A stretch of 7,379 bases of DNA from positions 1 to 7,379 of the forward strand of contig NYXF01000029.1 of the NCBI GenBank assembly GCA_002685455.1. The letters run 5' to 3'. The notes under the pieces were generated by a model, which saw only the letters and a program-made list of their open reading frames with translations, was not told the origin of the DNA and searched no databases. The DNA comes from Porticoccus sp. GTDB taxonomy: Bacteria > Pseudomonadota > Gammaproteobacteria > Pseudomonadales > Porticoccaceae. Position 1 is the first letter of the stretch. Each line of letters begins with the position of its first letter. Shown here in pieces: positions 6,378-7,379 of the stretch. The position numbers and the translations under genes are program-made.

Positions 6378-7379
6378 ATGTCAAGAGTAAAATCTACAAA
6401 AGATACTATACAACCTAAATATCAACCAGACCCAGAATCACTTGTTGATAGTATTGCGTTTGGTCCTGTAAGTAAAGTAGAAGCATGGAATGATAAACTA
6501 CAGATAATGAAAGATCATACACCCGCATCTTGTGATAAAGCAAGGGAATTATATAAGGGTATTGCTTCTGGTATTAAGGGTGAAAGAAGATGGAAATCAC
6601 CTGGTAGAAGAATGGATGCCGCTAAAGCATTGATATTAAGTGATAAATTACAATGGATACCTGAAAAATGTAATCCTAAAGCAGGTAAAAAGAAAAAATC
6701 ACGTACTAAAAGACATGCTGTTAAAAGTCATAAAATGAAGCGTAAGCGTAAGCAACAGAGTAAGAGTAAGCATAAGCAACAGAGTAAGCGTAAGCGTAAG
6801 CAACAGAGTAAGTATACACGCAAAATGAATAGAAAGACAAATAATAGGCGTAAGACTATACGCAGAAATACTCGGAGAACTAGACGTAGAAATGTTCGGA
6901 GAACCAAAAAGAGAATGATGGGTGGGGATACTGTGTCAAAAGGCGTATATCCTAGTGGTGATTTGATATCTAGACCAGGAGAAATATTTCTGGATGCTGA
7001 TGGTTTAAAAATCGAACATGAAAGCTCTGGCACGCACACGATGAAAAAAAGTAAAATAACTAGTGTCACGCGTTTTTGGTGGTTTGGATATGGTAATGGA
7101 TACAAGATAACCACCGATGGTAAGGGAAAAATACCAGCAAGATATTGGGTTCCATGTAATGATGATGGTAGCATTGATGGGTTAGATGAGAGTACATTAG
7201 ATGCTCTTAAGCAATTAATTCCACCACCAGAACCAGCACCAGAACCAGAACCAGAACCAGAACCAGAACCAGCAGCAGCACCAGTAGCAGCACCACCAGA
7301 ACCACAACTAGAATCAGCAACATCAGGACCCCAACTACAACCAGAATCTGAACCAGCAGCAGGAGAGGTGGAAGCAGCA
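6378..7379 (+). CDS. Modular basic protein with octad repeats, MMGG motif and Pro/Glu/Ala tail (3' end missing)
   Basis: An uninterrupted frame runs from the ATG at 6378 to the window end, 334 codons without a stop. I do not recognise the family. Residues 20-100 are a mixed, probably helical domain with three Trp (37, 72, 93). Residues 101-179 contain 43 Lys/Arg and no Asp/Glu, first Lys-rich then Arg-rich, and are built on 8-residue repeats (RKRKQQSK type at 122-145, RRNTRRT type at 153-176). KKRMMGGD (177-184) ends the basic region and resembles the (M/I/L)xGG-x sites of adenovirus-type proteases. Residues 195-281 look like a compact beta-rich domain closed by a helix (DESTLDALKQLI), with a PH-like pattern by inspection only. 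From 282 on it is low-complexity Pro/Glu/Ala. The basic region suggests binding to DNA or RNA, for instance as a packaged condensing protein; this is inference. Arg codons CGT/CGC/CGG are frequent here while neighbours prefer AGA. A long frame on the opposite strand (6728-7174) is a shadow of the Lys/Arg repeats. Confidence 0.85.
   Translation, partial: MSRVKSTKDTIQPKYQPDPESLVDSIAFGPVSKVEAWNDKLQIMKDHTPASCDKARELYKGIASGIKGERRWKSPGRRMDAAKALILSDKLQWIPEKCNPKAGKKKKSRTKRHAVKSHKMKRKRKQQSKSKHKQQSKRKRKQQSKYTRKMNRKTNNRRKTIRRNTRRTRRRNVRRTKKRMMGGDTVSKGVYPSGDLISRPGEIFLDADGLKIEHESSGTHTMKKSKITSVTRFWWFGYGNGYKITTDGKGKIPARYWVPCNDDGSIDGLDESTLDALKQLIPPPEPAPEPEPEPEPEPAAAPVAAPPEPQLESATSGPQLQPESEPAAGEVEAA
6741..6812 (+). 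repeat. Three tandem 24-base units encoding RKRKQQSK-type octads
   Basis: Units are 6741-6764, 6765-6788 and 6789-6812. The first and third are identical; the second differs at two bases, giving SKHKQQSK in place of RKRKQQSK. Each unit is in frame and adds eight residues to the basic region, so unit gain or loss would keep the reading frame. Near identity at DNA level implies recent duplication. Confidence 0.95.
6834..6905 (+). repeat. Older 24-base repeats encoding Arg-rich octads
   Basis: The second and third units (6858-6881 and 6882-6905) match at 19 of 24 bases and encode IRRNTRRT and RRRNVRRT. A more diverged unit, KTNNRRKT, precedes them (6834-6857). The period equals that of the Lys/Gln repeats upstream, though the sequence is different, so the basic region seems to have grown twice by eight-residue steps. 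Confidence 0.75.
7227..7274 (+). repeat. CCAGAA/CCAGCA hexamer array encoding Pro-Glu/Pro-Ala
   Basis: Eight in-frame hexamers, five of them consecutive CCAGAA copies (7239-7268), encode a (Pro-Glu)n tract with Pro-Ala units at the edges. The following 105 bases continue as less regular Pro/Ala/Glu/Gln-rich coding sequence up to the window end. Such tracts are flexible, extended linkers and prone to length change by slippage. Confidence 0.95.

Follow-up and report, generated by a model that had tools for sequence, protein, structure and literature searches.

CHMP1-type ESCRT-III subunits assemble into polymers on membranes and use the MIM1 motif to bind Vps4. Among viral proteins with related features (described here and below from excerpts of the cited papers), herpesvirus pUL51 resembles CHMP4B, a likeness recognised by structure, and forms filaments (PMC7289601), herpesvirus pUL71 recruits VPS4A via a MIM2-like motif (PMC11218997), and baculovirus Ac93 is described as a protein of five ESCRT-III-like helices that binds Vps4 by means of a MIM1 at its C-terminus (PMC11998489). 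Snf7 proteins are reported to be core in mirusviruses and not to have been identified in nucleocytoviruses (PMC12768974, 2025). Proteins of this kind bear on the means by which giant viruses shape, open and reseal their membranes, and on whether their scission machinery is self-supplied. Here, we describe a gene that is cut off by the end of a 7,379-base stretch of DNA deposited under Porticoccus sp. (contig NYXF01000029.1 of assembly GCA_002685455.1, positions 1 to 7,379; hereafter, the window). We propose, with a probability of roughly 0.55, that this gene encodes a virus-made, PH-anchored ESCRT-III membrane-remodelling factor.

The gene begins with an ATG and extends on the plus strand from position 6378 to position 7379, where the window ends before any stop codon, leaving an open reading frame of 334 codons, as the initial annotation had indicated. 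All modules described here lie on the same strand. An N-terminal domain of no known family (aa 1-96; 6378-6665), predicted at low confidence to be mainly helical, precedes a Lys/Arg-rich region ending in Gly-Gly at residues 182-183 (aa 97-183; 6666-6926), a PH-like domain (aa 184-282; 6927-7223) and the start of an acidic Pro/Glu/Ala linker (aa 283-334; 7224-7379), the last being delineated by composition and by alignment with a near-identical full-length relative of 569 aa, P0001. Residues 97-183 constitute the longest stretch devoid of Asp and Glu, with 44 Lys/Arg and no acidic residue among 87. Within it, residues 101-182 contain 43 Lys/Arg, and because residues 180-182 are M, M and G, the earlier count of 43 Lys/Arg without acidic residues in a 79-residue region is exact for residues 101-179. 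The length of the basic region is plastic, given that a 24-bp in-frame tandem repeat (8-residue unit, 3.1 copies; 6738-6812) is located there and that the corresponding region of P0001 is shorter by 20 residues.

The view of the product as an unusual modular protein, with a Gly-Gly motif separating the basic region from a beta domain, was borne out by the database searches. The window protein matched no Pfam or NCBIfam family above the curated cut-offs and no PHROGs family at E<=0.1, and the best hit of its 334 residues in the PDB had an E of 0.12. When searched separately, neither the N-terminal domain nor the PH-like domain yielded a family above cut-off in Pfam, NCBIfam or PHROGs. Weak Pfam names assigned to the window protein (Trypan_PARP, presenilin and DDHD, among others) track composition and were rejected; eL29 and tektin, the sole PDB matches of the N-terminal-domain profile (E 0.21-1), were likewise dismissed as composition.

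The continuation of the protein beyond the window can be followed in P0001, whose residues 1-110 are identical to those of the window protein and which is collinear with it up to the last residue of the latter, followed by further linker and then by the ESCRT part. In P0001, the acidic Pro/Glu/Ala linker occupies residues 263-320 and is succeeded by an ESCRT-III domain similar to CHMP1, then by a MIM1-like motif and, finally, by a C-terminal end rich in Lys. A fragment of P0001, derived from sequence beyond the 334 residues of the window protein, matched CHMP1B with E=1.2e-10 and CHMP1A with 8.4e-7 across the helix 1-2 core, and the same fragment reversed as a control produced no CHMP match. 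The predicted structure of the ESCRT part contains a long helical hairpin, as in solved ESCRT-III, and superposes on CHMP1B at 1.8 Å over 105 residues. Judged by computed sequence similarity, the C-terminal part of P0001 is related to CHMP1-type ESCRT-III. The MIM1-like motif, DAEFEARLDKLR, deviates at one position, F for L, from the consensus (D/E)xxLxxRLxxL(K/R) (PMC2884189, PMC11998489), and a relaxed form of this pattern was present in 17 of 20,000 shuffles. Taken together, the parts that can be identified (PH-like fold, ESCRT-III domain and MIM1-like motif) suggest a link with membranes and Vps4. Under the proposed mechanism, the CHMP1-type hairpin would form polymers on membranes, the MIM1-like motif would recruit a host or viral Vps4 ATPase, and the PH-like domain that follows Gly-Gly would place the protein on a particular membrane or partner. 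A viral ESCRT-III so placed could constrict or seal a membrane, for example, during formation of an internal virion membrane or exit.

The domain that supplies the putative anchor had been described as compact and beta-rich, which agrees with the structure prediction: residues 184-282 were modelled as a seven-stranded barrel with a C-terminal helix, the arrangement that defines the PH superfamily, at a mean predicted local distance difference test (pLDDT) value of 61. A PH-like fold is thus predicted for this domain with moderate confidence. None of the Pfam PH-type families matches window positions 6927-7235, but P0002, a protein with the same N-terminal region, carries a Pfam PH domain at the corresponding place (PF00169, 40.9 bits). 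Among the best 50 matches listed per query, structure searches of BFVD revealed no viral protein clearly related to ESCRT-III or to PH domains, an absence that excludes nothing, and the top matches of the 569-residue P0001 model overlay at high root-mean-square deviation.

Compared with CHMP1/Did2 (Vps46), P0001 has the helical hairpin with CHMP1B similarity and a MIM1-like motif behind the hairpin, but differs in being fused behind a basic leader, Gly-Gly, a PH-like domain and a linker, in its Lys-rich extension, in one MIM1 position and in scoring below the Pfam Snf7 cut-off. In P0001 residues 549-569, a second glycine run precedes Lys-rich sequence at the extreme C-terminus, an arrangement reminiscent of the leader junction turned round, with the glycines placed ahead of the basic residues. 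Similar to the Snf7 proteins of Mirusviricota (PMC12768974), the protein would represent a Snf7-family ESCRT-III protein from a large DNA virus of eukaryotes; the excerpts of that paper give no domain architecture for the mirusvirus proteins. It shares with the herpesvirus proteins either an ESCRT-III-like helical hairpin (pUL51) or a motif resembling the type that recruits VPS4A (pUL71); unlike in pUL71, the motif in P0001 is MIM1-like rather than MIM2-like, and neither a PH-like domain nor a leader is mentioned for pUL51 or pUL71 in the excerpts cited above. Ac93, likened here by description only, is likewise a viral helical protein, its MIM1 corresponding to the MIM1-like motif of P0001; a leader and a PH-like domain are not mentioned for it in the excerpt of PMC11998489. 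In the open-licence literature on ESCRT/Snf7 and viruses, we found no title reporting a combination of leader, PH-like and ESCRT-III domains. Should the proposed role hold and the virus prove to be a nucleocytovirus, the protein would be the first of the Snf7 family in that group. A virus-encoded relative of CHMP1 that is joined to both a PH-like domain and a shared leader offers a candidate open to direct testing.

The N-terminal domain together with the basic region recurs in other proteins. With the N-terminal 110 residues as query, 4 proteins were retrieved among 62 candidates in a search of 5.8 billion proteins, which sees only those of 0.55-1.75 times the query length that have short words in common with it. 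The N-terminal domain is identical between the window protein and P0001, and its identity to the window sequence is 99% in P0002, 90% in P0003 and 88% in P0005. The sequences that follow the basic region differ from protein to protein: P0002 continues with a PH domain, P0001 with the PH-like and ESCRT-III domains, P0003 with sequence that has no family match, and P0005 with a short tail. A further protein, P0004, whose available sequence is without the N-terminal domain, has the PH-like domain in common with the window protein (93 of 110 residues); a similar Pro/Ala/Glu linker then leads into a different tail. On these sequence comparisons, the N-terminal domain and basic region behave as an exchangeable leader in front of different cargo, and the genes that carry this leader may be paralogues within a single genome or else alleles of the same locus. 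The cargo of P0003 and P0004 found no confident match in Pfam or the PDB, and BLASTP between the two proteins returned nothing (best E 5.0). A PH-like start of the P0003 cargo was considered and not established, as its local score was reached by 49 of 1000 shuffles against P0001 and 119 of 1000 against P0004, with a profile probability of 0.4%. P0005 (192 aa) is encoded on the longest contig, of 51,721 bases, against 34,020 for P0003 and 5,189 for P0001. Its tail is similar to what the PH-like region of the window would encode in a different reading frame (a similarity reached by 0 of 500 shuffles), and this copy thus looks frameshifted or affected by a sequencing error. Scans of viral contigs with the window protein, P0001, P0003, P0004 and the N-domain alignment recovered no locus of relatives.

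Gly-Gly closes the basic region in five of the six aligned sequences (the window protein and P0001-P0004) and is absent from P0005. The protease pS273R of African swine fever virus (ASFV) processes polyproteins at Gly-Gly-X, with X frequently hydrophobic (PMC10308890), which makes cleavage at this position conceivable. The resemblance consists of the motif alone, located between the leader and the following part; unlike in the ASFV proteins, X is D, S or T here, and no protease was recognised in the window. The common leader might direct its cargo to the virus factory, the nucleus or the virion through contacts of its polybasic part with nucleic acid or with acidic lipid, and it might perhaps be cut off at Gly-Gly. 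More tentatively, and in our estimate doubtfully, an exchangeable and possibly cleavable leader would allow a giant virus to package or target varied membrane-acting proteins (PH; PH-like plus ESCRT-III; others), including an ESCRT-III scission machine of its own beside that of the host. The shared leader also provides a handle for finding the whole set of co-targeted proteins.

The basic region could be read differently, as the initial annotation had done in suggesting a virion nucleic-acid-binding protein masked by its own tail. In an amended version, the region, with its 44 Lys/Arg in 87 acid-free residues, would condense or tether viral DNA or RNA in the virion or factory, the other domains being accessory and no masking tail being involved. 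The titles of PDB entries 6e8g and 8v2q list CHMP1B-IST1 copolymers with ssDNA and ssRNA, and thus ESCRT-III and nucleic acid are compatible. We nevertheless consider this reading unlikely, given that no nucleic-acid-binding domain was found and that membranes are what the PH-like fold, the ESCRT-III domain and the MIM1-like motif suggest. The acidic stretch is real, residues 283-334 comprising 12 acidic and no basic residues, but in P0001 it is an internal linker and not a C-terminal tail, with the ESCRT-III-like domain and the Lys-rich end coming after it, and therefore self-masking is not supported.

The CHMP1 similarity itself could also serve interference, whereby a CHMP1-like domain with altered ends would cap or poison host ESCRT-III and thereby, rather than carrying out scission itself, block membrane repair, abscission or defence of the host. 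The CHMP1-like core, the one non-consensus MIM1 position and the large fused N-terminal modules would suit such a protein, to which we assign a low probability; P0001 retains both the hairpin and a MIM1-like motif, which fits function better than poisoning.

Several observations weigh against a PH-anchored ESCRT-III factor. The P0001 fragment scores 9.4 bits against Pfam Snf7 (PF03357), below the cut-off of 27.3, and the whole of P0001 does not match this family, which weakens the claim to formal Pfam membership, with the pairwise CHMP1 match standing beside it. Furthermore, the ESCRT part was seen only in P0001, one protein on one short contig, and the window gene itself ends within the linker. 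It is improbable, although favoured by a junction close to low-complexity sequence, by P0004 with the same PH-like domain, a similar Pro/Ala/Glu linker and an unrelated tail, and by P0001 being the only sequence returned with the PH-like/linker/CHMP1 join, that P0001 is a chimeric assembly in which the CHMP1 part comes from another gene and that the window gene has another C-terminus, as in P0004, considering that the collinearity of P0001 with the window protein persists to the last residue, with more linker before the ESCRT part, and that its fragment ends in a Gly run and Lys-rich sequence, an echo of the leader junction.

The remaining genes of the window indicate a giant DNA virus of eukaryotes as its source, because they include an mRNA capping enzyme and RPB7. 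The capping enzyme (701-4600, minus strand; 1,299 residues) was identified by guanylyltransferase and N7-methyltransferase matches, its residues 1-547 being without any Pfam match at E<=1. Of 7,992 candidates that were scored, 1,017 are related to it at E<=0.001, and among the 120 of these that were listed, the nearest nine show 83-91% identity across the region used in the search. No locus encoding such relatives emerged from viral-contig scans (with the protein and the alignment), a genome-contig scan (with the alignment) or tblastn against a phage collection. The mRNA capping enzyme is among the giant virus orthologous groups (GVOGm0036; PMC8575486), which favours Nucleocytoviricota, and no statement on mirusvirus capping enzymes was found in PMC12768974 or PMC10132985, in neither of which a text search met the word 'capping'. 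The neighbours thus suggest a nucleocytovirus, with a mirusvirus as the possible alternative. The other genes encode a 2OG-Fe(II) oxygenase recognised by family match (48-686, plus strand), proteins of 257 and 111 residues with no confident family in Pfam or NCBIfam (4687-5460 and 5441-5776, both minus strand), and an RPB7-like RNA polymerase subunit (5806-6309, minus strand; PDB match to RPB7, E=5.5e-6). The latter gene and the leader gene are divergent and lie 68 bases apart if the RPB7-like protein starts at the ATG at 6309. Along the gene at 6378-7379, the G+C content climbs from 35% to 54%, compared to 25.6% over positions 1-6377, a high value that might be due partly to low-complexity repeats and possibly to recent acquisition.
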